Part shown: positions 12,755 through 42,084 of the stretch, piece after piece | Layout: each line of letters begins with the position of its first letter | How positions within the stretch are numbered: position 1 is the stretch's first letter | Assembly (NCBI RefSeq): GCF_014196595.1 | Contig: NZ_JACIEA010000001.1 | Location: 216,085 to 280,084, forward strand | Direction of reading: 5' to 3' | DNA length: 64,000 bases | Source: Sphingorhabdus rigui | GTDB taxonomy: Bacteria > Pseudomonadota > Alphaproteobacteria > Sphingomonadales > Sphingomonadaceae | The notes under the pieces: model-generated | Told to the model about the DNA's origin: nothing | The model's database searches: none | What the model saw: the letters and a program-made list of their open reading frames with translations, nothing else | Position numbers and translations under genes: made by a program

Positions 12755-13591
12755 TTAACGCAAGGCTTGGTCCAACAAGCGCGCGAGCCTGATCCCGCCG
12801 CGTTCGACCTGTTGGCGTAATGCGGCGCGTGACGCAGCGATGTCGGCTTCATCAATCACCACAGGCGCGGTTGGCTTTGCGCCACATGGATCGCCATCGA
12901 CCGCGCGGGGATAGGCAATCTCTTTCGATATTGCCCAATTTTCTTCGCTCCACAGGCGCGCATTGCCCTGTTTGACAGCGGCTTTCTCCGCGGGCGAAAA
13001 CGCGCGCACAATCGCCGGTGCGGCAGAAAGCGCGCGGTCGGCGAGCAAGCCATCCCACACCATATGCAAATTATATCCCCGCATATTGCCATATATGACC
13101 TTTAGGTCATTGCCGCCGCGGTCCGCACGGTCACCGGCGTGCAATGGCTGGTGAATGTCACCCACAAAATGCACGAGAAAAGCCAGCGCCTGCAAACGGA
13201 GATGCGCAGGCAGCGCCTTGTTCGACAGTAACGCAAAGTTACGGTCGATTTGCGCAGACACGCAGTTTCCGTCGGCGCACGCGCTGTTCAGATCGAACGG
13301 CTTGCAAATATCGACATTCTGATAATGCCAGCTGTTGGTGTAGCCCCAGCGCGCACGATCGCCCTTGATGCAATCGGCCCAGACGCTGACATCGCCGATA
13401 TTGCGCATTGTGCATTTGGGCGTGCCGAGCATCGGCGCTGCACGCAACAGACGTTGCATATTGGCGCGCGCATTGGATGACATATTGGCCTGCGCAATGT
13501 GCGCCACGGTCTCATGTCCATATTCCCAATAGGCCTGAACAGGGGCAAGCGGTGCGAAAAGGACGAGAAGAGAGATAAGCAAGCGTTTCAT
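12755..13591 (-). CDS. S1/P1-type single-strand nuclease, secreted
   Basis: 278 residues from ATG 13591. A signal peptide (MKRLLISLLVLFAPLAPVQA) is followed by YWEYGHETVAHIAQ, the family N-terminus whose Trp normally becomes residue 1 and coordinates zinc. Further zinc ligands are visible as WADCIKG (Asp), NSWHYQNVD (His), FLVHFVGDIHQPLHAGDRADRGGND (His, Asp, His) and YNLHMVWDGLL (His, Asp). P1/S1 enzymes use three zinc ions to cut single-stranded DNA/RNA and remove 3' phosphates. The frame stays open far upstream into ispG on the other strand, but homology begins at this signal peptide. Many Cys residues suggest disulfides in the periplasm. Confidence 0.9.
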   Translation of the reverse strand: MKRLLISLLVLFAPLAPVQAYWEYGHETVAHIAQANMSSNARANMQRLLRAAPMLGTPKCTMRNIGDVSVWADCIKGDRARWGYTNSWHYQNVDICKPFDLNSACADGNCVSAQIDRNFALLSNKALPAHLRLQALAFLVHFVGDIHQPLHAGDRADRGGNDLKVIYGNMRGYNLHMVWDGLLADRALSAAPAIVRAFSPAEKAAVKQGNARLWSEENWAISKEIAYPRAVDGDPCGAKPTAPVVIDEADIAASRAALRQQVERGGIRLARLLDQALR

Positions 13592-13696
13592 GCGCGCGCC
13601 ATAGTTTGTAACGGCGTGTAAATCAAAGCGGCAATCGCGTGTCGTACGCATAGGATGATGATTGCGGGAATATTCCAAGCCGCCTATATCCCCCAA

Positions 13697-14836
13697 ATGT
13701 CTTCCATTCGCCCTTGGCGCGATATCGCGCGTCGTCAGTCCCGCCAAATCATGGTGGGTAATGTCCCTGTTGGTGGAAATGCCCCGATTGCGGTGCAAAC
13801 GATGACCAACACGCTGACCAGCGATGCCGCCGCGACCATCGCCCAAATCCGCCGCTGCGAAGATGCAGGGGTCGATATCATTCGCGTGTCCTGCCCTGAT
13901 GTCGAAAGCACCGCAGCGCTGAAACAGATCGTGCGCGCCGCCAATGTGCCCATCGTGGCCGACATTCATTTCCATTATAAACGCGCGCTTGAGGCGGCGG
14001 ACGCTGGTGCCGCTTGCCTGCGCATTAACCCGGGCAATATCGGCTCGTCCGAGCGCGTGAAAGAGGTCGTCAACGCCGCCAAGGCCAATGGCTGCGCCAT
14101 CCGTATTGGTGTGAACGCTGGGTCTCTGGAAAAAGACTTGCTCGAAAAATATGGCGAGCCTTGCCCGGAAGCGCTGATCGAAAGCGCGCTGGACCATATC
14201 AAGCTGCTGCAGGACCATGATTTCCACGAATATAAGGTCGCGGTCAAAGCGTCCGACGTGTTCCTTGCGGTTGCGGCCTATATGGGACTGGCCGAGGCGG
14301 TTGATTGCCCGCTGCATCTGGGGATTACCGAAGCGGGCGGGTTGATTGGCGGCACCGTCAAATCATCCATCGGCATGGGCAATATGCTCTGGGCCGGAAT
14401 TGGCGATACCATCCGCGTCAGCCTGTCTGCGGAACCCGAAGAGGAAGTTCGTGTCGGCTATGAAATCCTCAAAGCATTGGGCCTGCGCACCCGCGGTGTC
14501 CGCGTGGTCAGCTGCCCCAGCTGTGCCCGCCAAGGTTTCGACGTTATCCGCACCGTACAAAAGCTGGAAGACGCGCTGAGCCATATCAAGACGCCCATGT
14601 CACTCTCCGTGCTTGGCTGCGTCGTCAACGGCCCCGGCGAAGCGCGCGAAACCGATATTGGCATCACCGGCGGCGGCAATGGCAAGCATATGGTCTATCT
14701 GTCGGGCGTGACCGATCACCATGTCGAAAATGACGACATGGTCAGCCACATCGTCAAATTGGTCGAAGCCAAAGCCGCCGAAATCGACGCCGGCACCAGC
14801 GTCAGCATGGATACGCTGCACGGGAAAGCGGCTTGA
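13697..14836 (+). CDS. ispG: 4-hydroxy-3-methylbut-2-en-1-yl diphosphate synthase (flavodoxin)
   Basis: 379 residues from ATG 13697, where family alignment starts ([20 protein letters not shown]); an in-frame ATG at 13655 would add 14 residues and has a weak AGGA upstream. The TIM-barrel part shows API-VQTMTNT and [11 protein letters not shown], and the C-terminal ferredoxin-like part shows [11 protein letters not shown] and [11 protein letters not shown], containing the three Cys and the Glu that bind the 4Fe-4S cluster. It converts methylerythritol cyclodiphosphate to HMBPP, the penultimate MEP-pathway step of isoprenoid (carotenoid, ubiquinone, bactoprenol) synthesis. The GNAT gene overlaps its stop. 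Confidence 0.96.
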
Positions 14837-16380: not shown

Positions 16381-17571
16381 TTACGCCGTCAGCGCCGAAT
16401 AGATCATCGTTTTGATTTCGCGGCGCACCGGATAGGTGGTCGATGGCAGCAATTGCGTCATGAAAATCATGATGATGTCTTCCACCGGATCGATGAAAAA
16501 GGCGGTGGAATACATGCCGCCCCAATAAAAATCGCCGTTGGAACATGGCGCAAGTGTCGCGGCGCTGTCGATGGTCGTGGCAAAGCCAAGGCCAAAGCCA
16601 ATGCCAGCCATATCGGCCTCGCTAAACAAAGACTTCGACATTTGCGTCAGGTCTTGGCCGCCCGGAATATGGTTGGCGGTCATCAATTCTATCGTTTTGG
16701 GGCTCAAGATTTGTGCCCCATCAAGCGCGCCGCCATTCAGCAGCATCCGGCAAAAACGGTGATAGTCGGATATGCTCGACGCAAGGCCGCCGCCGCCGGA
16801 ATTGAAAGTCCAACCCTTGGCCCAGGCACTTTCGGATCCCGCCTTGTCGAGCAGCTTCATTTTGGTGTCGGGGTCAAAGCCAAAGCCGTCGGGGATGCGC
16901 GATGCCTTATCAGCGGGCACTTGGAAAAATGTATCGGCCATGCCCAGCGGCGCAAAGATATGCGTCTGGAAATATTCCGGCAGTGATAACCCGCTGATCC
17001 GTTCGACCAATATGCCGACAATGTCGGTGGCGACGGAATAATTCCACTGCGTACCGGGGTCGAATTCCAGCGGGATTTGCGCGAGCGTGTCGATCATGCT
17101 TTGCGATGTATTTTTGGTCCAGCTTTCCACATCGGTCTTGCGATAGGCCGCGTCGACATTGCCCTGTTCCTGAAAGCTATAGGTAAAACCAGCCGTGTGG
17201 CGCAGCAGATCGACGATGCGCATCTGGGTCGTTGGCGGGCGCGTCATAAACGGCACGTTGCCGCCGCCGCCCATAAATACGCCCAATTTCGCAAATTCCG
17301 GAATATATTTGGAAACCGGATCGGTCAGCGCAACCTTGCCCTGTTCGACCAGCTGCATGAACGCGACCGAGGTGATGGGCTTGGTCATCGATGCAATGCG
17401 GAAGATCGCGTCGTCGGCAACGCCTGAATTCCACTGAAGCGCAATATCATCACCGCGTCCGACCAGCAGCGCCGCAAACGGCAATTTGCCGCTGTCGAGA
17501 TATTCGGTCTGAATGAATGCAGGTATCCGGGCAAGCCGGTCTGGACGGAAACCTAATTCTTCGGCGTTCAT
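16381..17571 (-). CDS. Serine hydrolase of the beta-lactamase/esterase (class C, EstB-like) family
   Basis: 396 residues without a signal peptide. The SxxK motif SMTK is at 61-64 and the YxN-equivalent is Y178-S-V ([14 protein letters not shown]). No obvious HxG triad appears, but a WGGMYST stretch near residue 360 stands in its place, as in family VIII esterases. Such enzymes hydrolyse esters, lactones or amides in the cytoplasm. Its start overlaps the upstream SDR stop by 4 bp, making it the last gene of a seven-gene catabolic operon. Opening a lactone or ester before or after CoA activation is plausible but inferred from position only. Confidence 0.85.
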
Positions 17572-18365
17572 ACGGCTGTTTGTCCTGTTAATTGGCGGGT
17601 TACGGGGTGCGAGCTGGAAAGGCCGCCGTCGACGGCAATCGCTTGACCATTGACGTAGCTGGCCTGATCACTCGCAAGGAACAAGGCGACATTGGCGAGC
17701 TCCTCTGGCTGCGCGCCGCGGCGCAGCGGGTTGAGGCGGCCGATCTTGTCGGTCACGCCCTTTTCCTTTGCATAATCGAATGTCGGCTTGGTCATGCCGG
17801 TTTCGGTCAGGCCGGGGCAAATGGCGTTGCAGCGGACATTGGTGCCCGACAATTGTTGCGCGCTGACTTGCGCCAGATTGATGACGCCGGCTTTTGACGC
17901 CGAATAAGGCGGGCCGCCCGCACCCGAACGAATGCCCGCGACACTTGCGGTCAGGATGATCGAACCGCCATTGCCTGCATCGGCCATGACCTTGCCCGCA
18001 TGCTTGACCATCAGCCAAGGGCCGATGAGGTTGACGCGCAGGACGCTGGTGAAATTTTCGACTGTGTTGTCGAAGATACCTTCCATGCCGCCGGAAATGC
18101 CCGCATTGGCAAACGCGATATCCAGATGCCCGTGCAGTTCGATCGCCTTTGCGACAATCGCGGCGACATCCGCCTCATCGCCTGCGTCCATCTGGACGGC
18201 GGTGGCGGCGTCGCCAATCATCGCTGCAGTGTCATGCACCGATGCGGCCATATCGCCCAAAACGACCTTTGCACCTTCGGCGGCAAAGCGAATGGCCGAT
18301 GCGCGGCCAATGCCGGAACCTGCGCCCGTGATGATGGCTACTTTGCCTGCTAATGCGCCGGTCAT
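17568..18365 (-). CDS. Short-chain dehydrogenase/reductase
   Basis: 265 residues. The NAD(P) motif TGAGSGIG is at about 14-21, the NAG motif in FANAGISG, and the catalytic Ser-Tyr-Lys in [20 protein letters not shown] (YxxxK). An acidic residue follows the second strand (VVLGDM), which favours NAD over NADP. It overlaps both neighbours by 4 bp (SDR before, serine hydrolase after). In this acyl-CoA operon it would oxidise a hydroxyl, perhaps of a hydroxyacyl-CoA. Confidence 0.88.
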
Positions 18366-19123
18366 ACCACTACACCCCCATCAACAACGATTGTCTGCCC
18401 AGTCATAAAGGTTGAGGCATCGGAGGCGAGATAAACGGCGGCGCCTGCAATCTCACGCGGCTCGCCAATCCGGCCCAATGCTGCGCCAGAGGTTGACGCC
18501 TTCAAATTTTCGGGATTTTCCCACAATGCCTTGGCAAAGTCGGTCTTCACCAGACCCGGAGCGATGGAGTTAATGCGCACATTATGTGGGCCAAACTCGC
18601 GGGCGAGATTTTTGGTCATCTGGATATCCGCCGCCTTGGTAATCGCATAAGCGCCCAATATCGGCGATCCGCGCAGGCCGCCGATCGACGACACAATGAC
18701 GATGGACCCGGCCTTGCGTTCGATCATTTCGGGCGCAACCATTTGGATCAACCAATGCTGCGACACGATATTGTGGTCGAGTGTCTTGCGCAGCTGTTCA
18801 TCGGTGATCGTGGCCATTGGGCCGTAATGCGGGTTCGATGCCGCGTTGCAGACCAGAACGTCGACTTTGCCAAATGCCTTGCGGGTTTCATCGACAAGGT
18901 TTTGCAACGACTCTTTGGACGAAAGGCTTGAGGCCACGGCAATCGCGGCGCCCGGATGCTTGGCATTGATGCCCGCGGCGACCGCTTCGCAATCATCGAT
19001 ATTCCGGCTGGAAATCGCCACTTTTGCGCCGTGATCGGCCATTTCCTCGGCAATCGCCTGACCAATGCCACGCGATGAACCTGTGATGATTGCGACCTTA
19101 CCGGTCATATCAAATAGTGACAT
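18362..19123 (-). CDS. Short-chain dehydrogenase/reductase
   Basis: 253 residues. TGSSRGIG (about 14-21), CNAASNP (NAG-equivalent changed to NAA), IVSSIGG with the catalytic Ser, and YAITKAA with the Tyr and Lys are all present. A serine and Arg after strand 2 (AISSRN) suggest NADP(H) preference, unlike the next SDR. The NAAS variant is common in DHRS4-like and 3-oxoacyl reductase-like SDRs. It starts 44 bp after the kinase gene and overlaps the following SDR by 4 bp. Confidence 0.88.
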
Positions 19124-19167
19124 TGATCTCTCTCCTGTTCCTCCCGCTCATGGGGAGGATCTTATTT

Positions 19168-20250
19168 TTACGCCCCGGCTTGTTCCGCAAATTTCCATGC
19201 GGATTGCGCGAGCGGGTACACACGTTCGGCCATCGCTTGTGCATGGGACGAACTTGCGGTGCCATCGATAACGCGTTTTTTGATGCCCTGAATAATCCCC
19301 GCCAAGCGGAAGAAGTTATAGGCAAAATACCAGTTCATATCGGGCACGCCGTCGCGGTTGGTTGCCGCGCAATAACGTTCGACCATCGCGTCCAATTCAG
19401 GGATGCCGAGTGCCGCGCGGTCCAAATCCATGACGCCGGAGCGCCCTTCATTATGCGTGACCCATGCCATTGCGACATACGTGAAATCCGCCAACGGATC
19501 GCCAAGCGTCGACAGTTCCCAGTCGAGCACGGCGACAACATGTGGATCCTTGGCATCGAAAATCATGTTGTCGATGCGGTAGTCACCATGAACGACGCTG
19601 GTGCGTGTTTGTTCGGGCAGCGTTTTGGGCAGCCATTCGATCAACCGCTCCATTTCGGGCATGACTTCGGTTTCTGCCAGTCGATATTGCTTTGTCCAGC
19701 GGTCGACCTGACGTCCGAAATAATTGCCGGGTTTGCCAAAATCGGACAGTCCGGCTGCGTCGACGTCAACATTGTGCAACGCGGCCAGCGTGTCGATCAT
19801 CGCTTCATAGGTTGCTGTGCGCTCGGCCGGGTTAGACCCCGGCATCGCGCCGTCCCAAATGGTGCGGCCCTCGACCATGTCCATGATGTAGAACCAGCTG
19901 CCGATGACGCTGTCGTCGGTGCACAGGCCATAGGGCTTGGCGACGGGAAAGCCTGTGGGATGAAGCCCGGCGATGACTTTATATTCGCGGTCCACGGCAT
20001 GCGCGCTGGGCAACAATATACCCAATGGCTTGCGGCGAAGCACATATGAGCCACTTTTGGCGTTAAGCCGGTATGTCGGGTTGGATTGCCCGCCGGCGAA
20101 CTTCAGCGCCTGCACGGGGCCTTCAAAACCGGCGACATTGGCGGTCATCCATTCGGCGAGCTTGGCTTCGTCCAATATGTCCGTGCCGGTTGGTGCAACG
20201 GTACCGGTAAAGGCCGTCTGTGCATCAATGGGTGTCGGCGCTGCGGTCAT
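19168..20250 (-). CDS. APH-fold phosphotransferase, LvaA/ACAD10-like hydroxyacyl-CoA kinase candidate
   Basis: 360 residues with an aminoglycoside-phosphotransferase kinase fold: GGQSNPTYRL (glycine loop, 53-62), the lysine/arginine strand YVLRRKP (69-75), the catalytic loop HGDYRIDN (221-228) and the metal-binding DWE (243-245). This subfamily is the kinase domain of vertebrate ACAD10/ACAD11 and the bacterial LvaA type, which phosphorylates the 4-hydroxyl of 4-hydroxyacyl-CoA. Supporting this, the ACAD11/LvaC-like dehydrogenase is encoded two genes upstream in the same operon. It overlaps the Zn-alcohol dehydrogenase by 4 bp. Antibiotic resistance is unlikely given this context. Confidence 0.82.
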   Translation of the reverse strand: MTAAPTPIDAQTAFTGTVAPTGTDILDEAKLAEWMTANVAGFEGPVQALKFAGGQSNPTYRLNAKSGSYVLRRKPLGILLPSAHAVDREYKVIAGLHPTGFPVAKPYGLCTDDSVIGSWFYIMDMVEGRTIWDGAMPGSNPAERTATYEAMIDTLAALHNVDVDAAGLSDFGKPGNYFGRQVDRWTKQYRLAETEVMPEMERLIEWLPKTLPEQTRTSVVHGDYRIDNMIFDAKDPHVVAVLDWELSTLGDPLADFTYVAMAWVTHNEGRSGVMDLDRAALGIPELDAMVERYCAATNRDGVPDMNWYFAYNFFRLAGIIQGIKKRVIDGTASSSHAQAMAERVYPLAQSAWKFAEQAGA

Positions 20251-21335
20251 TGGTCAAATACGATAACCGAACGGGCCGCATCACCGCGCTTCATTTGGTC
20301 AAAGCCTTCATTGATACGTTCCAGCGGAATGGTTTCCGAAACGATGCTGTCGAGATCGAGCATGCCGCGCATGTAGAAATCGACGAGGCGCGGAATATCA
20401 ACAGGGAAGCGGTTGCCGCCCATGATCGCACCTTGCAGTTTTTTGCCCGACAGCAAATCCATTGCCGACAGACCGACCGAATGCTGCAGCGGCATCATGC
20501 CCAGTATCGTTGCAGTCCCGCCGCGCTTGAGCGATTTGACGGCAAGTTCACCCGACGCGGGGCGACCAACAGCTTCAATCGCATGATCGACGCCGCCCTT
20601 GGTCAATTCCTGAATTTGCTTGGCTGCATCAGCATCCATTGGGTCAATGACATCGGTTGCACCCAGCTTCATCGCCAGTGCCCGCTTTTCGGGCATAGGG
20701 TCAGCCGCAATGATGCGGCCCGCACCGGCAATTTTCGCCGCGTTAATCGTCGCAAGACCAACGCCGCCACAGCCGATAACTGCAATGGTTTCACCGGGCG
20801 TCACTTTGCATGCGTTGAAAATGGTGCCTGCGCCTGTGGTGACAGCGCAGCCAATGACCGATGCCTTATCAAGCGGCATTTCGGGGTTAATCGCAACGCA
20901 CGCATGTTCATGCACCAGCATCATTTCGGCATAAGCCGACAGGTTCAGCATCTGGTTGACGATGCTGCCGTCGGGGCGTGTCAGGCGTGGGGCTTCGCCG
21001 GGCTTGCGCCGCGTGTCGCCGCCAAGGCACAAGGACATCCGGCCAGAGACGCAATATTCGCAATGGCCGCAGAATGCGCTCAGGCAGGTGACAACGGCGT
21101 CGCCCACCTTAACGGTGCGCACTTCGCTGCCCACGGCCTCAACAATACCCGCCGCCTCATGACCCGGAATCGCGGGCAGGGGGTGCGGATATGTGCCTTC
21201 AATGAAATGCAGATCGCTATGGCAAAGCCCGCAGGCCGCAGTGCGGATAAGCACCTCATGCGGCCCGGGGTTCGAAATATTGATCTGTTCAATCTGAAGC
21301 GGTTTGCCCGCTTCGATCAGGACGGCAGCCTTCAC
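20247..21335 (-). CDS. Zinc-dependent alcohol dehydrogenase (MDR, class III-like)
   Basis: 362 residues. Catalytic zinc ligands are seen in CGLCHSDLH and PGHEAAG; the structural zinc cysteines in [15 protein letters not shown]; the nucleotide loop in [19 protein letters not shown]; and a following acidic residue (IAADP) suggests NAD. The length and the CLGG/TRR insertion match the class III/NDMA-like alcohol dehydrogenase group that oxidises primary or hydroxyacyl alcohols. It overlaps its neighbours by 4 bp on both sides, so it is tightly coupled to the ACAD and kinase. Confidence 0.9.
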
Positions 21336-22615
21336 CGTGCTGCTCCCATGTCACCGCTCGACATGCCTTCTTTGCCGCGGCCGCCATGCTTGCCCAATTC
21401 CATACGGGCAATCGCACGTGCGTGCACTTCGTCCGGACCATCGGCGAGGCGCAAGGTGCGCTGATGCGCCCATGCAGACGCCAGACCGAAATCGTCGGAC
21501 ACGCCGCCGCCGCCATGGGCTTGAATGGCGTTGTCGATGATGCTGAGCGCCATGTTCGGTGCCTGCACCTTGATCATCGCGATTTCCGCCGCCGCTGCCT
21601 TGTTGCCGACCTTGTCCATCATGTCCGCAGCCTTGAGGCAAAGCAGACGCGTCATTTCAATGTCGATACGCGCACGGGCGATGCGTTCTTCCCACACGCT
21701 ATGTTCGGCAACGGTCTTGCCGAAAGCAACGCGCGACTGAAGCCGCTTGCACATTTTCTCCAGCGCTTCTTCAGCGGTGCCGATGGTGCGCATGCAGTGG
21801 TGAATACGGCCAGGCCCAAGGCGCCCTTGCGCGATCTCGAAGCCGCGGCCTTCGCCCAGCAGCATGTTCGATGCCGGAATGCGGACATCCTTGAGTTCGA
21901 TTTCCATATGGCCATGCGGCGCATCGTCATATCCGAACACGGGAAGGTGACGCAGGATTTTAACGCCCGGCGCGTCGAGTTCCATCAGCACCATTGATTG
22001 CTGCGCATGACGCTTCGCTTCGAAATCGGTCTTGCCCATGACAATCGCGATTTTGCAGCGCGGATCGCCTGCACCTGATGACCACCATTTGACGCCATTC
22101 AGGACATATTCGTCGCCTTCACGGCGAATCGATGTTTCGATGTTGGTCGCATCTGACGACGCCACGGCTGGCTCGGTCATCAAAAAGGCCGAACGGATTT
22201 CGCCGTTCATCAGCGGGATCATCCACTTTTCTTTTTGCTCTGCCGTGCTGTACCGCAGGAACACTTCCATATTGCCGGTGTCCGGCGCGGAACAGTTGTA
22301 CACTTCGGATGCAAAACCGATGCGGCCCATTTCTTCGGCGCATAGGGCATATTCCATGTTGGTCAGGCCGGGGCCGTCGAAATGGACGCTGTCATCGACA
22401 TGCACGCGGCCCGACGTTGGCGGCATGAACAGGTTCCAAAGACCAGCGGCTTTCGCCCGTGCCTTTTCCTCTTCAACGACCTGAAGCACTTTCCAACGGT
22501 CACCCACGGCCTGTTCAGCATAATAATCGGCAACGCGCGGACGCAGGAAGCGTTCGTTATGGTCGCGAATGCGGTCCCGCCAGTAAGTTTGTTTGTCGGT
22601 GAGATCGAAATTCAT
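21332..22615 (-). CDS. Acyl-CoA dehydrogenase, ACAD11/LvaC-like
   Basis: 427 residues. It starts directly with the dehydrogenase fold and keeps the motifs [33 protein letters not shown] and a C-terminal GPDEVH in place of the usual [14 protein letters not shown] and the [11 protein letters not shown] stretch are what I recall from ACAD10/ACAD11 and LvaC rather than from fatty-acid ACADs. In ACAD11/LvaC systems the enzyme removes the phosphate from a 4-phosphoacyl-CoA, letting the chain re-enter beta-oxidation. The paired APH-type kinase supports that role. It lies 45 bp after the MFS gene, with a palindrome in the gap. Confidence 0.87.
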
Positions 22616-22632
22616 GACTCAATTCCTCTTCC

Positions 22633-22648
22633 ATATGTAATTGCATAT
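22633..22648. promoter_or_regulatory. Imperfect palindrome between the MFS and ACAD genes
   Basis: ATATGTAATTGCATAT (22633-22648) matches its reverse complement at 14 of 16 positions and lies 18 bp before the acyl-CoA dehydrogenase start. An AT-rich palindrome of this form fits a TetR-type operator or an internal promoter element. There is no regulator gene in the cluster itself. Confidence 0.3.
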
Positions 22649-22660
22649 TTAACTGGCAGA

Positions 22661-24064
22661 CTATGCCGATGTGTTCAAGGCGCGCAAACGTTCATTATGA
22701 CTTTCGCGTGAAATTGGGAAATGCCGCAGGATAAGAACGCCTATAATTCCAAGGACGGCCACTACGCCCATATAATATAGAGCAAGCCCATCAAGGACAG
22801 CGGGGCCAACATTGCCCGGCACGGCGTTTTGGGGAAAATCGGCAAAGCTCAATATCATGCCAGCGGCAAAGGTGCCGATACCAACGGCGCATTTCTGCAT
22901 AAAGAAATAGCCTGCAAAAAACAGACCTTCGGATCGGCGTCCCGTTTCTTCCTGCGATGCCTCCACAACATCGGCCATCATCGACGATGTCAGCATCATC
23001 ATGCCGATAGCCGTGCTGTTGGAAAATATAAGGAAGGAAAACATGAATGCGACCGACGGGTCCGATGGCCCACCGGGCACAAGGTCAAGCAGCCAACTGG
23101 CGTACAAAGCGGTGTTGAAGCTGAGCGATAGCAGCGCCAGCAGGATAGCGGCGTTTTTCTTGCCAAGGCGCGCAGAAAGTGGCGGAACAATGAAAAATGC
23201 GACGATGACCGTGCCGAACAGCAGAAGTGCGTAATAGAGCATTTCCATCTGCTGCAACTGCCACAGAAAGGCGAGCTGATAGTTGCTGAGCGCAAAGGTG
23301 AGGCCCTGATTGATAAGGGCAAACAAAGCGGCCGACACCAGCCAGAGGAAGGCTTTGTTGGACAGGGTTGCCTTAACTTCGGCAAGCGCATGGCCAAGGC
23401 CTGCGCCGCGCGGGGCAGGCGGGGATTGCTTCGCCACATGGCGGTGCTGGCCCAATGCTGAAATCAGCACCGCGCCGGTCATCATCAACGCGCCCCATAA
23501 GGACAGCGAGTCATAGCCATCGGGGTCGCTCACACCCTTTTCGCCGGTGAAAAATATGCCATAGGCGAAAATCAGCATCAGCAAGCCGCCCGCCCAACCG
23601 AACAGAAAACGGTAGCGCATCAATCGCGTGCGTTCGTCATAATCGCCGGTCAGTTCCGGCACCAAAGCGATCGACGGCACTTCGCACATCGCAACCAATG
23701 TGCGCGCCAATACCGCGGTGCAGAACAGCCAGATGATCGTTCCGGTCTGCCCCATTTCGGGCGGGTGCCACAGCAGCATCCAGATAATGCCGAGCGGAAT
23801 CGCCGCGCTGTATAACCATGGAAGGCGGCGGCCCCATTTGCTTTGCGTGCGGTCGGACAGCTCGCCAATGATCGGGTCGGCAAAGGCATCGAAAATCAGC
23901 GCCGCCATAATGACAGTGCCGACCAGCCCTGCGTCAATGCCCAGCACCTGATTATAAAAAATCAGCAGAAAAACCGAAAAGCCATTGTCCTTCACGCCAT
24001 AGGCTACCGAGCCTAGACCATGGATGACCTTCAACGATCGGGGAAGTGGGACTGCTTGGGCCAT
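22661..24064 (-). CDS. MFS transporter, GPH (MelB-like) cation symporter family
   Basis: 467 residues with about twelve hydrophobic segments. The N-terminus (LKVIHGLGSVAYGVKDNGFSVFLLIFYNQVLG) and the loop AFADPIIGELSDRTQSKWGRRLPWL match the glycoside-pentoside-hexuronide:cation symporters, whose first loop reads D-P-x-x-G-x-x-x-D-R-T-x-S-x-x-G-R-R. In sphingomonads this family is common next to acyl-CoA and steroid/terpenoid catabolic genes, so the substrate may be an organic acid rather than a sugar. It appears to be the first gene of the seven-gene operon. No ribosome site precedes the ATG; a strong one sits before a leader ORF at 24071-24115. Confidence 0.87.
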   Translation of the reverse strand: MAQAVPLPRSLKVIHGLGSVAYGVKDNGFSVFLLIFYNQVLGIDAGLVGTVIMAALIFDAFADPIIGELSDRTQSKWGRRLPWLYSAAIPLGIIWMLLWHPPEMGQTGTIIWLFCTAVLARTLVAMCEVPSIALVPELTGDYDERTRLMRYRFLFGWAGGLLMLIFAYGIFFTGEKGVSDPDGYDSLSLWGALMMTGAVLISALGQHRHVAKQSPPAPRGAGLGHALAEVKATLSNKAFLWLVSAALFALINQGLTFALSNYQLAFLWQLQQMEMLYYALLLFGTVIVAFFIVPPLSARLGKKNAAILLALLSLSFNTALYASWLLDLVPGGPSDPSVAFMFSFLIFSNSTAIGMMMLTSSMMADVVEASQEETGRRSEGLFFAGYFFMQKCAVGIGTFAAGMILSFADFPQNAVPGNVGPAVLDGLALYYMGVVAVLGIIGVLILRHFPISRESHNERLRALNTSA

Positions 24065-24070
24065 GGAAAG

Positions 24071-24115
24071 TTAAATGACGCTGCGCGAAAGGGTAGTGTT
24101 TCCGTCGAATCGCAC
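24071..24115 (-). CDS. Possible 14-codon leader ORF before the MFS gene
   Basis: AGGAGAG (24123-24129) stands 7 nt before a GTG that opens a 14-codon frame, VRFDGNTTLSRSVI, ending with TAA 6 nt before the transporter ATG and in the same frame. The transporter ATG has no ribosome site of its own, so it may be translated by re-initiation after this leader. Equally, the TAA could be a mutation in a once longer N-terminus, though the transporter aligns well from its ATG. Confidence 0.3.
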   Translation of the reverse strand: MRFDGNTTLSRSVI

Positions 24116-24276
24116 GTTGTTTCTCTCCTGTTTCCTGCCTTCATGCTAGGCTTGCTTCTTGGCCTGTCAATCGCGATGCAAATGACGTTACGGCATGCTT
24201 CGCTCACCGATAAGCGCTTGCGTTTCTGCGCGTGACCGCCCAAAAATTCATCACGCAATTAAAACAGGAGAGCATG

Positions 24277-25437
24277 ATGTCCGAGCTTGAAACTTTCCGC
24301 GCCGAAGCGCGCGCCTGGCTGGAGGAAAACTGCCCAGCTGAAATGCGCACGCCTGCAAAGGGTGACGAAGATGTCTGCTGGGGCGGCCGCAATTTTGTGT
24401 TCCAATCCGACGCGCAAAAGCTTTGGCTCGAACGCTGCGTGGCGAAGGGGTACACCGTGCCCGATTGGCCCAAAGCTTATGGTGGTGCAGGCCTTAGCCC
24501 GCAGGAAACCAAAGTCTTGCGTCAGGAAATGGCAAAGCTTGGCTGCCGATCGCCGCTGAACAGCTTTGGCATATGGATGCTTGGCCCCGCACTGTTAAAG
24601 TTCGGCACCGAAGAGCAAAAAGTGCATTATATGGGCCAGATCGCGCGCGGCGAAATCCGCTGGTGTCAGGGCTATTCCGAACCCGGCTCGGGCAGCGACC
24701 TTGTATCCATGCAGACCTTTGGCGAAGACAAGGGCGATCATTGGGTCGTCAATGGCCAGAAAATCTGGACGTCCTATGCGGACAAGGCGGACTGGATTTT
24801 CTGCCTCGTGCGCACCGACAAGACCAACAAATATCAGGGCATCAGCTTCCTGTTGTTCGACATGCAAACGCCCGGCGTTACCACCAAGCCCATCAAGTTG
24901 ATTTCGGGCAATTCGCCTTTCTGCGAAACCTTCTTCGACAATGTCGTGGTCCCCAAGCATCAGATCGTTGGCGAATTGAACCGCGGATGGGATGTTGCGA
25001 AATATCTGCTCGGGCATGAGCGCGAGATGATTTCGGGCATGGGCGGCGATGGCGGCGTGACCTCCATCGGTGCGGCGATGAAGGCTGTATTGTCCGAAGA
25101 ACCCGTGCTGCGCGCGCAAATGGCATTGTTTGACGTCGAAAATCTGACATTCCGTGCGCATGGCGAACGGTTCATGGACGAATGGAAAACCGGCAAGGCG
25201 CATCCCGCTTATTCCAACCTGATGAAATATGTCGGGACCGAGCTGAATAAAAAGCGCAACGAACTGGTGATGTCGATTGGCGGAACGCAGGCGCTGGAAT
25301 GGGAAAGCGAACGTTCCAACGGCGGGTCAAAGGCACGCAATTGGTTGCGGACCAAGGCGAACTCGATTGAAGGCGGCACCAGCGAAGTCATGCTGAACGT
25401 CGTATCCAAACGTATCCTCGAAATGCCGGGAGCTTAA
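24277..25437 (+). CDS. Acyl-CoA dehydrogenase family protein (FadE26-like subunit)
   Basis: 386 residues from ATG 24277, 6 nt after AGGAG; the adjacent ATG at 24274 is also possible. Seen: GYSEPGSGSDLVSM (flavin/substrate loop), NGQKIWTSYADKADWIF and the C-terminal IEGGTSEVMLNVVSKRILEMP, all intact, so the FAD site is complete. It is followed 4 bp later by a second, less typical acyl-CoA dehydrogenase. Such adjacent pairs in sterol and bile-acid degraders form alpha2beta2 heterotetramers acting on bulky or branched side chains. It is divergent from the MFS-ACAD-kinase operon. Confidence 0.88.
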   Translation: MSELETFRAEARAWLEENCPAEMRTPAKGDEDVCWGGRNFVFQSDAQKLWLERCVAKGYTVPDWPKAYGGAGLSPQETKVLRQEMAKLGCRSPLNSFGIWMLGPALLKFGTEEQKVHYMGQIARGEIRWCQGYSEPGSGSDLVSMQTFGEDKGDHWVVNGQKIWTSYADKADWIFCLVRTDKTNKYQGISFLLFDMQTPGVTTKPIKLISGNSPFCETFFDNVVVPKHQIVGELNRGWDVAKYLLGHEREMISGMGGDGGVTSIGAAMKAVLSEEPVLRAQMALFDVENLTFRAHGERFMDEWKTGKAHPAYSNLMKYVGTELNKKRNELVMSIGGTQALEWESERSNGGSKARNWLRTKANSIEGGTSEVMLNVVSKRILEMPGA

Positions 25438-25441
25438 GAAT

Positions 25442-26578
25442 ATGGCGATGACATTGAACGACGACCAGAATATGCTGCGCGAAAGCGCGCGCGATTTCAT
25501 GGCGAGTGAAGCCCCCGTCACCCATTTCCGCAAATTTCGCGACATGGGGTGCAAGGATGGTTTCAGCCATGGCCTGTGGAAGCAGTTTGCCGAAATGGGT
25601 TTCACCGGCATCCTCATTCCCGAGGCGGAAGGCGGCATGGGCATGGGCCAGATTGAGGCTGGTATCGTGCTGGAAGAAATTGGCCGCAACCTGTCACCTT
25701 CGCCATTTCTGACGACATCGGTTGCCGCTGTCGAGGCGTTGAAGCTAGCCGACAAGGCGATGCGTGACCGCTGGTTCCCCGGAATTTTGGCGGGCGAAAC
25801 GGTTATCGGCATTGCGATTGAAGAAGGCGTAAAGCACCGGCCCGAAAAAATTGCTTGCGTCGCCGAACGCAGTGGCAATGGCTTCAAACTGACCGGGCAC
25901 AAGCAATTTGTTGTGCAAGGCACGTCGTCGGATATGCTGATCGTCGCCGCACGGACCGCAGGCGCGGTGGGAGAGACCGATGGCCTGACATTGTTCGCGG
26001 TCGACAAGGATGCGGCGGGCCTGTCGATGGAGGCGGCACGTTTGGTCGATTCCGCCATGGCGGCGCATGTGAAACTGGAGGGCGTTCAGGTGAATGCCGA
26101 CGCTGTCATTGGTGACGTTGACGGCGGCTGGGCGGTGCTTTCCAAGATGCTGGACGCGGGCCGCGTTGGGGCGGCCGCCGAAATGGTCGGCGTTGGCACC
26201 GGCGCCATGGACATGACGTTCGATTATCTGAAAACGCGCAAGCAGTTCGACCGCGTCATCGGCGAGTTCCAAGCGCTTCAGCACCGCGCCGCGCATCTTT
26301 ATGGTGAAATGGAAGGCGCGCGTTCGATTGTGCTGAAGGCGCAATCGTTAATGGACGAAGGCCATGCCAAGGCAGAGCTATATGTTGCGGCGGCCAAGGC
26401 GAAAGCAGGCCTCGCATGCAATCTTGCGGTACGCGAAGGCGTGCAGATGCATGGCGGCATTGGCATGACCGATGAATATGACATCGGCCTTTATATGAAG
26501 CGCGACCGCGGGCTGAATGAATTTTTCGGCGATGCATATTATCACGCAGACCGCGTGGCGACGATGAACGGTTATTAA
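25442..26578 (+). CDS. Acyl-CoA dehydrogenase family protein (FadE27-like partner subunit)
   Basis: 378 residues, ATG at 25442. The fold is recognisable (GFTGILIPEAEGGMGMGQIEAGIVLEEIGRN at about 53-83; LDAGRVGAAAEMVG; YLKTRKQFDRVIGEFQALQHRAA; REGVQMHGGIGMTDEYDI). The middle-domain SEP-x-GSD signature of the neighbour is absent, replaced by IAIEEGVKHRPEKIA, as expected for one subunit of a heteromeric enzyme. It lies 4 bp after the first ACAD and 13 bp before the SDR, so the three form one transcription unit. Confidence 0.87.
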   Translation: MAMTLNDDQNMLRESARDFMASEAPVTHFRKFRDMGCKDGFSHGLWKQFAEMGFTGILIPEAEGGMGMGQIEAGIVLEEIGRNLSPSPFLTTSVAAVEALKLADKAMRDRWFPGILAGETVIGIAIEEGVKHRPEKIACVAERSGNGFKLTGHKQFVVQGTSSDMLIVAARTAGAVGETDGLTLFAVDKDAAGLSMEAARLVDSAMAAHVKLEGVQVNADAVIGDVDGGWAVLSKMLDAGRVGAAAEMVGVGTGAMDMTFDYLKTRKQFDRVIGEFQALQHRAAHLYGEMEGARSIVLKAQSLMDEGHAKAELYVAAAKAKAGLACNLAVREGVQMHGGIGMTDEYDIGLYMKRDRGLNEFFGDAYYHADRVATMNGY

Positions 26579-26591
26579 AAGGACACCGAAA

Positions 26592-27386
26592 ATGGACATT
26601 CAAACTTTATTCAACCTCAATGGCCGCGTTGCCCTGGTCACCGGCGGATCGCGCGGAATCGGCAAGATGATTGTCGAGGGCTATTTGAAAGCAGGCGCGG
26701 CACGCGTGTACATAAGCGCGCGCAAGGTCGACCAAATTGAAGAAACCGTTGCCGAGTTTGGCAATCAGGTCATTGGCCTGCCTTGCGATCTGTCGACCGT
26801 TGACGGTTGCCTTTCGCTGGCTGCACAAATTGCCGAGCGTGAGGAAAAGGTCGACATTTTGGTGAACAATGCAGGTGCGGCATGGGGTGCCGACTTTGGT
26901 CAATTCCCCGAAGCCGGCTGGGACCGCGTGATGGACCTGAACGTCAAATCCTTGTTCTTCCTGACGCAAGCTTTGCATCCGCAGTTGAAAGCGGCCGCGA
27001 CATTTGATCGGCCCGGCAAGGTCATCAACATCGCGTCGATTGACGGCCTGCGCATCAACCCATGGCAAACCTACAGCTATCAGGCATCAAAGGCTGCGGT
27101 CATTCACCTGACCCGCCGTTTGGCCGCCGAGCTGGTCAAGGACAACATCCTCGTGTCGGGTATTGCGCCCGGTGCGTTCCAGTCGGACATGAACAAAGCG
27201 GCGCGTGACCATGCCGATGCGGTCGGCAAAAATATCCCGTTCCCGCGCATCGGAACACCCGAAGATATGGCGGGACTCGCGATTTTCTTGGCGGCGCGCG
27301 CTGGCGATTATATCGTTGGGGAGACAATTGCGTGCGACGGTGGCATCGTCAACGCATCGCTTCCCGGTAATGGAATTGCGCCTTAA
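26592..27386 (+). CDS. Short-chain dehydrogenase/reductase
   Basis: 264 residues. TGGSRGIG (about 17-24), VNNAGAAWG, INIASIDGLR with the catalytic Ser, and YSYQASKAA (Tyr, Lys) are present. An Arg after strand 2 (ISARK) suggests NADP(H). AAAGGA-type spacing precedes the ATG. As the last gene after two acyl-CoA dehydrogenases it may reduce or oxidise the beta-position of the acyl-CoA. A strong bidirectional terminator follows 50 bp downstream. Confidence 0.88.
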   Translation: MDIQTLFNLNGRVALVTGGSRGIGKMIVEGYLKAGAARVYISARKVDQIEETVAEFGNQVIGLPCDLSTVDGCLSLAAQIAEREEKVDILVNNAGAAWGADFGQFPEAGWDRVMDLNVKSLFFLTQALHPQLKAAATFDRPGKVINIASIDGLRINPWQTYSYQASKAAVIHLTRRLAAELVKDNILVSGIAPGAFQSDMNKAARDHADAVGKNIPFPRIGTPEDMAGLAIFLAARAGDYIVGETIACDGGIVNASLPGNGIAP

Positions 27387-27435: not shown

Positions 27436-27472
27436 AATAGGGTGAGTTGCAAAACGTGCAACTCACCCTATT
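27436..27472 (+). terminator. Very strong hairpin terminator after the ACAD-ACAD-SDR operon
   Basis: AATAGGGTGAGTTGCA (27436-27451) and its exact complement at 27457-27472 form a perfect 16-bp stem with a 5-nt loop, followed by CTTTTC. A short A run on the other side could make it work in both directions. It ends the operon that finishes at 27386. Confidence 0.85.
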
Positions 27473-27593
27473 CTTTTCGCAATTGCAGCATAAACACTCG
27501 GCCCCTATTTGGGCGTCAACGGCAAGCGATTGCCGAAACACAGATTGACCGGGCGGCACCCTCCTCCTCTCTCCCTCGCCCCCGGACAATATT

Positions 27594-27632
27594 ACGGCCT
27601 CCATGCACAGCGTGGAGGCCGTTTCTGTTTTG
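27594..27632 (+). terminator. Second hairpin terminator in the gene-free stretch
   Basis: ACGGCCTCCA (27594-27603) pairs exactly with TGGAGGCCGT (27613-27622) around a 9-nt loop, followed by TTCTGTTTTG. No gene ends between this hairpin and the strong one at 27436-27472, so it implies either a short untranslated transcript starting near 27480-27590 or a redundant stop. Confidence 0.6.
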
Positions 27633-27719
27633 CCCAAAAAGTTGTTCTCCATATTGTCCACCGCGAAGTGGCCCGCCTGTGGATAACTCCGCGTTTACAG
27701 CTTTGTGCGACTCGAAAAG

Positions 27720-28063
27720 CATGAGACCTTCAAGTCATCAGGCAGACAGGCTGAGACGCAAAGTGGAACCGGAAACGGGAAAGCAGAGCGGACCGGAGTG
27801 GATGCAGGATCACCAAATCAGCAGGCAATCGGTCGCAAGACCGGGAATGTGGCAGAGGCGGTGGGTACGAAGAAAACGAATATCATGTGCGGCTGATCGC
27901 AAGAAAAGCAACGCCAGATAGGATACCCAAGGTACCAAGGTGAACTGAAATGACTTTCGGGTCAGATTGGGGAACCGGACGTCAGAAAGCGGAAAGAATG
28001 GCCCTGGTGGCCAAGGACTTCCAAAATCAGACGCAGTGGGCGCTGGTAGCAATACCAGCGCCC
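27720..28063 (+). ncRNA. Candidate structured purine-rich RNA or long purL leader
   Basis: This 340-bp stretch has no convincing gene on either strand. The + strand is strikingly rich in G and A, with about a dozen GGA triplets, and holds hairpins: CGGTC-GCAA-GACCG (27830-27843, a GNRA tetraloop), TGAC-TTTCGG-GTCA near 27950, a GGCC/GGCC hairpin near 28000, and a final 11-bp stem also closed by GCAA. It ends in a terminator only 37 bp before the purL start. It could be an independent small RNA or an attenuating leader of purL. I cannot match it to RNase P, tmRNA, 6S or SRP RNA. The 5' limit is uncertain. A small frame (27705-27896) is open here but looks non-coding. Confidence 0.4.
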
Positions 28064-40902: not shown

Positions 40903-42084
40903 TCAATGTTGCGCACCGCGCGCAGTTGAGGCCTTGGCCGCGTCGAAGCGGCGGGCGAGAGGCCATACCACCGCGATGGCGGCTATGCAGGTCAGCGCCC
41001 CCAGTGGGCCGATTGCGGCATAGCCGCCAAAACGCTGCGCGATTGCGCCTGCAGCCAGTGACCCCATCGACTGGGCGAGAAGCCAGGTTCCGGTGGTCAT
41101 CACGGCCAAACGTCCGCTTTCGTCGCAATCATAAGCGAGACCCAGCAACATGGGATAGGTCAGGAACCAACTGACATAATAGCCCATGAAGGCCGCAGCG
41201 AAGGCCATTGGCGTGCCCACGGTGGTCAACAGGGCACAGGTCACCCCGCACGCGCCCAAAACCAAGGCCAACGGCCGGGCGCGTGTCAGCCGTGTGCTGA
41301 TCGCGGCAAGCCCCGCATTGCCAAGTGCGCTCGCCAGGGTGGCAAGCGACTGATAGCGACCAAATTCGGTCGCCGGAATGCCGATCGCGTGGGCGGTGCG
41401 TTCAATGAAGGGCCAGAGTGCCAGAGTACCAAATGCGAACAATGCCATGGCGGTGAGAACGCGCAGGCCATCCGCGCCTATCGGTGATTTGGGTTCGCGG
41501 GTATCACCGTTTGAAAGATCCGTCCCGCCAGGAAGCAGCAAAGACATCATCCCAAGGCCAGCAGAGATCGCCGCGAGGGCAAGAAACATGCCCTCCACCC
41601 CGTAACGTGCGCCAACCTGCGGCAGGCCAAGCGCAATCGCTGCAAAGAGAACCGTCTGGAACGCAATGCCGAGCGAAATCCAGCGCGCGGGATGGCTTGT
41701 TCGCCCTGCCGCAAGATTGACCGCGGAATTGAGGATGCCAAAGCCGAGCCCGGTGCCGATCCGTCCGATAAGAAGAAGGCCGAAACTGCCGGTCAGCGCG
41801 GACCCTGCCTGAGAGAGGATCACCAGCAGACTTGCCACCAGCGCCAGCAGTCGCGGATCAAGCCGCCGCGCGCGTGGCGCGATGATGAACATCGCCGCGG
41901 CATAGCTCAGCGTTTCGGCCATGTTCCAAGCGCCCATCGCAAAGGGCGAGAAGCTGAACCGATCGATGAGGCCGCCGACCAGATAGGTCGTGAAATTGTT
42001 TCCGAGATGCGCTGCGGTCGACGCCGCGCCTATGCCGATGAACGTGAAGGCAAAGGGGCGTTCCCCCAGCGCGCGCTTAGTCAT
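40903..42084 (-). CDS. MFS transporter, partner of the choline sulfatase
   Basis: 393 residues with about twelve hydrophobic segments. The start FTFIGIGAASTAAHLGNNFTTYLVGGLID and the loop RIGTGLGFGILNSAVNLAAGR are MFS-like, but the subfamily is not clear. Its ATG overlaps the TGA of betC by one base (TGATG), so the two are translationally coupled. The obvious role is uptake of choline-O-sulfate, or exchange of a product. Both lie inside the direct-repeat-bounded segment and there is no homologous transporter elsewhere in the window. Confidence 0.8.
   Translation of the reverse strand: MTKRALGERPFAFTFIGIGAASTAAHLGNNFTTYLVGGLIDRFSFSPFAMGAWNMAETLSYAAAMFIIAPRARRLDPRLLALVASLLVILSQAGSALTGSFGLLLIGRIGTGLGFGILNSAVNLAAGRTSHPARWISLGIAFQTVLFAAIALGLPQVGARYGVEGMFLALAAISAGLGMMSLLLPGGTDLSNGDTREPKSPIGADGLRVLTAMALFAFGTLALWPFIERTAHAIGIPATEFGRYQSLATLASALGNAGLAAISTRLTRARPLALVLGACGVTCALLTTVGTPMAFAAAFMGYYVSWFLTYPMLLGLAYDCDESGRLAVMTTGTWLLAQSMGSLAAGAIAQRFGGYAAIGPLGALTCIAAIAVVWPLARRFDAAKASTARGAQH

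Follow-up and report, generated by a model that had tools for sequence, protein, structure and literature searches.

A conserved acyl-CoA locus of sphingomonads with a kinase and a dehydrogenase of the ACAD10/11-LvaA/LvaC kind

Breakdown of 4-hydroxy acids by a kinase acting together with an acyl-CoA dehydrogenase (ACAD) is already known from mammals (ACAD10 and ACAD11) and from Pseudomonas, where it serves the levulinate pathway. In the scheme of PMC12440821 and PMC11342911, the kinase transfers a phosphate to the 4-hydroxyl of the acyl-CoA and the ACAD then eliminates that phosphate in a reaction that is redox-neutral at its flavin adenine dinucleotide (FAD), giving a 2-enoyl-CoA. We analyzed a 64,000-nucleotide stretch of Sphingorhabdus rigui (RefSeq assembly GCF_014196595.1, contig NZ_JACIEA010000001.1, positions 216,085 to 280,084; herein the window), in which positions 16381..27386 encode such a kinase (herein KIN) and such an ACAD (herein AC11). 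Sequence comparison places KIN and AC11 in the ACAD10/11-LvaA/LvaC kind, and the locus is a real, conserved acyl-CoA locus that is widespread in sphingomonads.

The locus differs from both described systems. The two activities are fused in mammalian ACAD10 and ACAD11, whereas here they are encoded by two genes with an alcohol dehydrogenase (ADH) gene between them, inside an operon with the ADH, short-chain dehydrogenases/reductases (SDRs), an ACAD pair, an esterase, and a transporter. The lva operon of P. putida and its P. citronellolis counterpart, compared by their description in PMC6692424, share the set of kinase, ACAD, and SDR; in contrast to them, the sphingomonad cluster has no LvaB, LvaE, or LvaR and carries other partner genes. 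Literature searches found no published description of the sphingomonad locus among the matches listed; most subscription journals lay outside their coverage, so this absence carries little weight.

Results

KIN and AC11 resemble ACAD11 and its bacterial relatives

The best solved relatives of AC11 are ACAD11 and bacterial homologs, with bit scores far above those of other ACADs. Among ACAD kinds, ACAD11 is the nearest to AC11 by both sequence and structure, and the modeled fold of AC11 is equally close to ACAD11 and to the bacterial 4hr3 in structure comparison. As in ACAD10 and ACAD11, both catalytic domains carry the published active-site residues. The phosphate-site and catalytic residues R626, R631, H634-C-M-R637, and D753 (mouse ACAD11 numbering) are present in AC11 and in 151 of 151 orthologs, and alignment shows this set to be absent from the genome's other aligned ACADs.

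KIN matches 3dxp at 384 bits and mouse ACAD11 at 251 bits. Its catalytic D220 and N225 and its CoA-contact residues R86 and R176 are retained in all orthologs with sequence at those positions (143 to 146 of 146); the 151 AC11 and 146 KIN orthologs comprise 146 and 141 distinct sequences, respectively. The identity of KIN as an aminoglycoside-resistance phosphotransferase (APH) was ruled out, as the corresponding NCBIfam models score at most 34.3 bits against cut-offs of at least 205, compared with 202 to 384 bits for ACAD11-type relatives. A kinase tree was built with ACAD11, 3dxp, 9o56, and relatives; support is weak at its deep nodes, and long branches lead to ACAD11, 9o56, 3ats, one relative, and the other APHs of the genome. 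Only the sphingomonad part of the tree was used.

An initial annotation of the window had proposed a pair of the ACAD10/11-LvaA/LvaC type and hence phosphorylated acyl-CoA chemistry. The assignment is supported by the residues, the gap in bit scores, the structure comparison, the co-occurrence of the two genes, and the gene set around them; the likeness of kinase and ACAD to their relatives held in alignments with mouse and human ACAD11 and bacterial relatives, to which the comparison is limited. A lactone, a secondary alcohol, or a bulky chain, which that annotation also suggested, may or may not feature in the substrate. A separate observation concerns another ACAD of the genome (C1:1427774-1428931), which lies in a stretch of several ACAD genes; it aligns an Asp with the catalytic column and an Arg with R626 and has no HCMR.

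A divergent gene set is conserved across sphingomonads

The genome that hosts the locus measures 2.47 Mb in 8 contigs. Ten open reading frames (ORFs) form two divergent operons across 16381..27386, separated by a 212-bp gap, with the coordinates, strands, and (from Pfam) folds that had first been read. The minus-strand order is major facilitator superfamily (MFS) transporter, AC11, Zn-dependent ADH (Zn-ADH), KIN, two SDRs (S2 and S1), and a beta-lactamase-fold esterase; the plus-strand order is ACAD, ACAD, and SDR (herein ACL, ACS, and S3). The seven genes described as an operon with 4-bp overlaps are all in place, and the overlaps themselves occur at four of six junctions, the SDR/kinase and ACAD/MFS pairs being separated by 44 and 45 bp. 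ACL had been read from GTG 24232; its start is most likely ATG 24277, because several close relatives show indels of 1 to 2 bp just 5' of it.

Conservation was followed in 80 named loci, which ranked best among 594 confirmed ones in a search with AC11. Full flanks are available for 53 of them, and the other 27 were excluded for incomplete flanks. The nearest of these best 80 come from Sphingorhabdus or from sphingomonad metagenome-assembled genomes (L084-L092), with AC11 identities of 93 to 99%. The features are as follows, with counts given for the 53 full loci.

16381..17571, minus strand: esterase of the family VIII type (beta-lactamase fold, S-x-x-K), optional; Pfam Beta-lactamase 195.6 bits, PDB 7pp3 370 bits; 24/53
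17568..18365, minus strand: SDR oxidoreductase S1, optional; Pfam; 26/53; adjoins kinase and S2 in plasmid operons
18362..19123, minus strand: SDR oxidoreductase S2, optional; Pfam; 21/53
19168..20250, minus strand: KIN, APH-fold kinase of the ACAD10/11 N-domain/LvaA kind; sequence matches to 3dxp and mouse ACAD11, residues; 52/53
20247..21335, minus strand: Zn-dependent medium-chain ADH, core; Pfam, best PDB match 1hdy with class I ADHs; 51/53
21332..22615, minus strand: AC11, ACAD of the ACAD10/11-LvaC kind; sequence, residues, structure comparison; 53/53
22661..24064, minus strand: MFS_2/GPH-type transporter; Pfam 379 bits; 45/53 at an identity of at least 38%
24183..24195, no strand: near-palindrome TGACGTTACGGCA in the divergent promoter region, predicted operator; motif conservation
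24277..25437, plus strand: ACL, ACAD, large subunit of a PimC/FadE26-like pair; Pfam, best PDB match 6wy9; 53/53
25442..26578, plus strand: ACS, ACAD, small subunit of the pair; Pfam, best PDB match 6wy8 chain A; 53/53
26592..27386, plus strand: SDR oxidoreductase S3, core; Pfam; 53/53

The gene set recurs in other sphingomonads: 50 of the 53 full loci hold KIN, AC11, the Zn-ADH, ACL, ACS, and S3. A further SDR that is absent from the window (S4) occurs in 37 and a FadB-like gene in 17. A second set of 60 loci from the window's family was chosen by kinase among the matches listed, and leans to higher kinase identity; KIN, AC11, ACL, and ACS are found together in 41 of these loci and AC11 in 48, and loci with a kinase identity of 57% or less often show the kinase by itself. 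AC11 and ACL are divergent neighbors in 115 of the 118 loci having both, a few genomes being counted twice, as the two sets share some genomes (e.g., L024 and L085).

Beyond the family, a sample of 150 genomes of the phylum (E ≤1e-80 for AC11, ≤1e-20 for KIN) contains AC11 in 37 and KIN in 38, and KIN is present in all 37 genomes with AC11 (Fisher p 2e-34, a value that overstates independence because the genomes are related). At the same threshold KIN occurs in 203 of 249 genomes of the window's family. Retention of both genes without adjacency is most simply explained if they encode sequential steps.

The surroundings of the cluster vary, from ispG/EamA and purL in close Sphingorhabdus relatives to guanylate kinase, dapD-like, and peptidase genes in other genera; Sphingopyxis-type loci are flanked by phosphoenolpyruvate (PEP) carboxylase, 3-hydroxyisobutyrate-dehydrogenase-like, and enoyl-CoA hydratase genes. 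Because the set keeps its composition in such different positions, it appears to be kept as a unit, and its conservation rules out a local chance assembly. The initial annotation's remark that this was no pathway it could name stands, but the gene combination is widespread in sphingomonads and in that sense not unusual. The recurrent flanks yielded no clue to the substrate among the genes scanned, which are mostly housekeeping (guanylate kinase, dapD-like, SspB, imidazoleglycerol-phosphate dehydratase, PEP carboxylase, peptidases); the 3-hydroxyisobutyrate-dehydrogenase-like and enoyl-CoA hydratase genes of the Sphingopyxis-type loci are the exceptions. In L037, L040, L042, and similar relatives, the cluster adjoins dapD-like and subtilase genes, and an M19 dipeptidase gene is often there as well.

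Partner genes include a putative heteromeric ACAD pair

ACL and ACS have Tcur3483 and Tcur3481 (6wy8/6wy9) as their best solved relatives, with 4x28 also matched. Scores to these proteins are modest (142 bits) and those to the best NCBIfam models, pimC and pimD, are higher; both models are matched well below their cut-offs, in which the window subunits differ from the known heteromeric ACADs. ACS has no Glu or Asp at the aligned catalytic column, ACL retains IEGGTSE, and their genes are adjacent. Adjacent ACADs of which one has no catalytic acid are the mark of heteromeric (alpha2beta2) pairs, and each window subunit matches its counterpart in Tcur3481/3483, 4x28, and PimC/PimD best or among the best. 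We take Tcur3483/Tcur3481 and 4x28 to be steroid enzymes; a search of the literature for the Tcur protein names gave no match. The earlier label "FadE26/27-like" is fair as a label and inexact in that the nearest solved proteins are Tcur3483/Tcur3481 and the nearest models pimC/pimD.

The product first called a serine hydrolase is a hydrolase, more exactly an esterase of the family VIII kind (S-x-x-K, beta-lactamase fold); its nearest solved relative, 7pp3, is esterase EH7 of that kind, as given in PMC9795927. The Zn-ADH scores 307.9 bits against the NCBIfam model for NDMA-dependent ADH, for which the cut-off is 440. The three SDRs of the cluster, recognized by Pfam, are candidates for an LvaD-like step, and S2 may possibly be the LvaD-like 4-keto/4-hydroxyacyl-CoA reductase.

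A promoter motif is shared with unlinked genes

The divergent intergenic regions share a nearly palindromic consensus, TGMCGYTACGGMA (TGCCG/CGGCA); the window copy, TGACGTTACGGCA, lies at 24183-24195. Removing repeats, lengths outside 60 to 450 bases, and non-divergent cases from 118 intergenic regions leaves 108 distinct regions. The motif is found at ≤1 mismatch in 97 of them, compared with 0/108 coding controls of the same lengths and 2/1080 shuffles; this count is descriptive because the consensus was drawn from the same regions. Once the close loci L024 and L084-L092 are removed, 88 of 99 regions retain it.

Orthologs of a thiolase and of a TonB receptor, genes outside the consensus set, served as tests; each set holds 30 high-scoring loci among the matches listed, one per genome. 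Within 1 kb upstream of the thiolase the motif occurs exactly in 15/30 and at ≤1 mismatch in 21/30, compared with 0/30 downstream and 2/300 in shuffles. Within 500 bases upstream of the TonB receptor the corresponding values are 7/30 and 11/30 (downstream, 1/30; shuffles, 5/300). A MaoC-like gene directly precedes the thiolase in 28/30, the window genome included, and the motif stands some 570 to 700 bases from the thiolase in most orthologs, which places it in front of the MaoC-thiolase pair; L278 and L300, which have no such arrangement, also have no good site.

Forty other sites were taken from nine genomes picked partly for many motif matches. Fifteen adjoin relatives of the thiolase, the TonB receptor, an ACAD, the ACAD pair, or an SDR, and three more adjoin citrate synthase, malate synthase, or an SDR in single genomes. 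We predict that in many sphingomonads one operator, TGMCGYTACGGMA, serves this locus together with the TonB receptor and the MaoC-thiolase pair; the locus is probably co-regulated with other acyl-CoA breakdown genes. As the motif recurs upstream of the MaoC-thiolase pair and of the TonB receptor, thiolysis and uptake are probably unlinked members of the regulon. A regulator gene was not found among the few neighbors of motif sites where it was looked for; our guess would be a TetR-like dimer. Literature searches with five 13-base forms of the motif gave no match, and the 11-base core appeared only in papers that by title concern other subjects.

Unlinked steps are joined in plasmid operons

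The window genome has an unlinked FadB-like gene at C2:466083-468092 (79% identity; 676-aa open frame, the end of which is the TAA within the match). Ligase-like genes are likewise unlinked (10 matches, best 34% identity). Plasmids of Novosphingobium capsulatum (NZ_CP140001) and Sphingobium sp. TomMM15 (AP027316) carry the run AC11, KIN, S2, S1, FadB-like gene, and AMP-forming ligase, followed by ACAD and thiolase genes (L164 and L165). These appear to be a more complete 4-hydroxy acid operon: an AC11-type ACAD, KIN, S2, S1, and the FadB-like gene run in one direction as shared components, but the operons have their own ligase, further ACADs, and a thiolase, and have neither a Zn-ADH gene between KIN and AC11 nor the divergent arrangement. 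In Azoarcus sp. KH32C, histidine phosphatase, KIN, SDR, and AC11-type ACAD genes are grouped, resembling the P. citronellolis levulinate cluster as outlined in PMC6692424.

Other features of the window

A 159-aa ORF with no Pfam match lies at 27442-27921 and has two tandem matches in some close relatives (L024, L085, L086). The 520-aa minus-strand ORF at 12755-14317 has an S1/P1 nuclease domain confined to residues 263-519; its first part overlaps ispG (13655-14836) in antisense orientation and probably does not encode protein. At 40903-43598, an MFS gene adjoins a sulfatase gene, the product of which has a choline-sulfatase domain at its C terminus.

Discussion

We consider it likely that the module uses phosphorylation followed by elimination of the phosphate to bring CoA-activated 4-hydroxyacyl compounds (and 4-ketoacyl compounds, via an SDR) into beta-oxidation. 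By analogy with the published enzymes, KIN would place a phosphate on the 4-hydroxyl of the acyl-CoA, and AC11 would carry out an FAD-dependent, redox-neutral elimination to the 2-enoyl-CoA. Family and linkage suggest that the unlinked FadB-like enzyme and the unlinked MaoC-thiolase pair would complete the cycle and that the putatively heteromeric ACL/ACS would dehydrogenate the remaining acyl-CoA. More speculatively, the Zn-ADH and SDRs could determine how far hydroxyls are oxidized and perhaps also their stereochemistry, the esterase could release the acid from an ester or lactone, and the MFS protein and co-regulated TonB receptor could provide uptake. Through the shared operator, the locus would be coupled to the TonB receptor and to the MaoC-thiolase pair. 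PMC11342911 describes a preference of the ACAD10 kinase for the R form; conceivably, the SDRs beside KIN interconvert R and S forms via the 4-keto compound.

Several observations weigh against this reading. The equivalent of human ACAD11 Pro463, a helix-breaking proline described in PMC11342911 as typical of ACAD10/11, is Ser103 in the window, and the 151 orthologs have S in 137, A in 6, and P in 8; in the AC11 model a helix ends at 96 with a short helix at 102-105 next. Since this proline belongs to the reported features of ACAD10 and ACAD11, we file AC11 as the bacterial kind rather than as ACAD10/11 proper. KIN and AC11 lie within 6 kb of each other in only 21 of 37 genomes of the phylum sample, and one genome has KIN without AC11. 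For 12 of the 60 kinase-picked loci, AC11 is missing at the level of ≥60% identity from the stretch read, and KIN may thus have partners besides AC11. The cluster has no gap large enough for LvaB (12 kDa; the largest gaps are 45 bp in the minus-strand set and 212 bp in the divergent region, the search being confined to the cluster rather than the rest of the genome). Pfam shows no thiolase in the cluster and, as the initial annotation had noted, no acyl-CoA ligase.

The motif has its own counterweights. At one mismatch it is absent from 19/30 TonB-receptor orthologs. A looser pattern gives four matches in the window genome vs 10 for the reversed control, and because the control has ten, motif counts alone mean nothing; three of the matches lie in the divergent promoter, upstream of the TonB receptor (C2:190403-193183), and upstream of the thiolase (C2:357627-358802), and the fourth falls within a gene encoding HhH-GPD and NUDIX domains. 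Across 39 genomes the motif occurs 92 times vs 153 for the reversed control, and 11 of the 39 have none. No acyl-CoA gene was found alongside 22 of the 40 other sites, part of their neighbors being outside the scan.

We advance only tentatively a fuller picture, in which a dedicated, widespread sphingomonad pathway would import (TonB receptor, MFS) and degrade a lipid-like compound, branched or bulky, that carries a gamma-lactone or an acyl chain with a 4-hydroxy or 4-keto group. Between two rounds of beta-oxidation that rely on different ACADs, phosphorylation and elimination would have to occur, and one regulator recognizing TGMCGYTACGGMA would also control the MaoC-thiolase pair and, in some genomes, central acetyl-CoA genes.

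It is possible, if somewhat doubtful, that the same chemistry serves not a growth substrate but the housekeeping clean-up of 4-hydroxyacyl products from lipid peroxidation or from unusual lipids of the cell's own. Retention of the set across many genera, and in a genome as small as 2.47 Mb, would fit such a role, and lipid-peroxidation products are among the mammalian sources of 4-hydroxy fatty acids named in PMC11342911. However, the operon transporter and the motif-bearing TonB receptors point to uptake from outside, and clean-up has no obvious need for the esterase, the ADH, or the ACAD pair.

That pair raises the question of steroid, bile-salt, or terpenoid side-chain degradation, with ACL/ACS acting on a bulky chain. 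Both subunits match the heteromeric Tcur3483/Tcur3481 and 4x28, but the scores are modest and those of pimC/pimD higher, the cluster seems broader in spread than a specialized steroid pathway would suggest, and the motif also occurs beside citrate and malate synthase genes; we regard this as rather unlikely. It also seems quite unlikely that KIN and AC11 apply the same elimination logic at another position or to another substrate (e.g., a 5-hydroxy or ring hydroxyl): the difference at the proline and partner enzymes unlike those of Lva would allow it, yet the phosphate-contact and catalytic residues are all unchanged and the modeled fold is as near to ACAD11 as to 4hr3.

A levulinate operon proper is very unlikely and was set aside: KIN, AC11, and the SDRs are of the same kinds as LvaA, LvaC, and LvaD in PMC6692424, but LvaB is missing from the cluster, Pfam finds no LvaE-like ligase there or in the scanned flanking genes and no LvaR-like regulator in the cluster, and the Zn-ADH, ACAD pair, and esterase are extra.

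Entry of 4-hydroxyacyl compounds into beta-oxidation by phosphorylation and elimination is the reading we prefer. On this reading, a large group of environmental bacteria would commonly use phosphorylated 4-hydroxyacyl-CoA chemistry, known from levulinate catabolism and mammalian ACAD10/11, as a co-regulated component of their acyl-CoA metabolism. With a concrete gene set, candidate unlinked partners (the MaoC-thiolase pair, the TonB receptor, and FadB), and a promoter motif named, the substrate and the regulator should therefore be findable by ordinary genetics.

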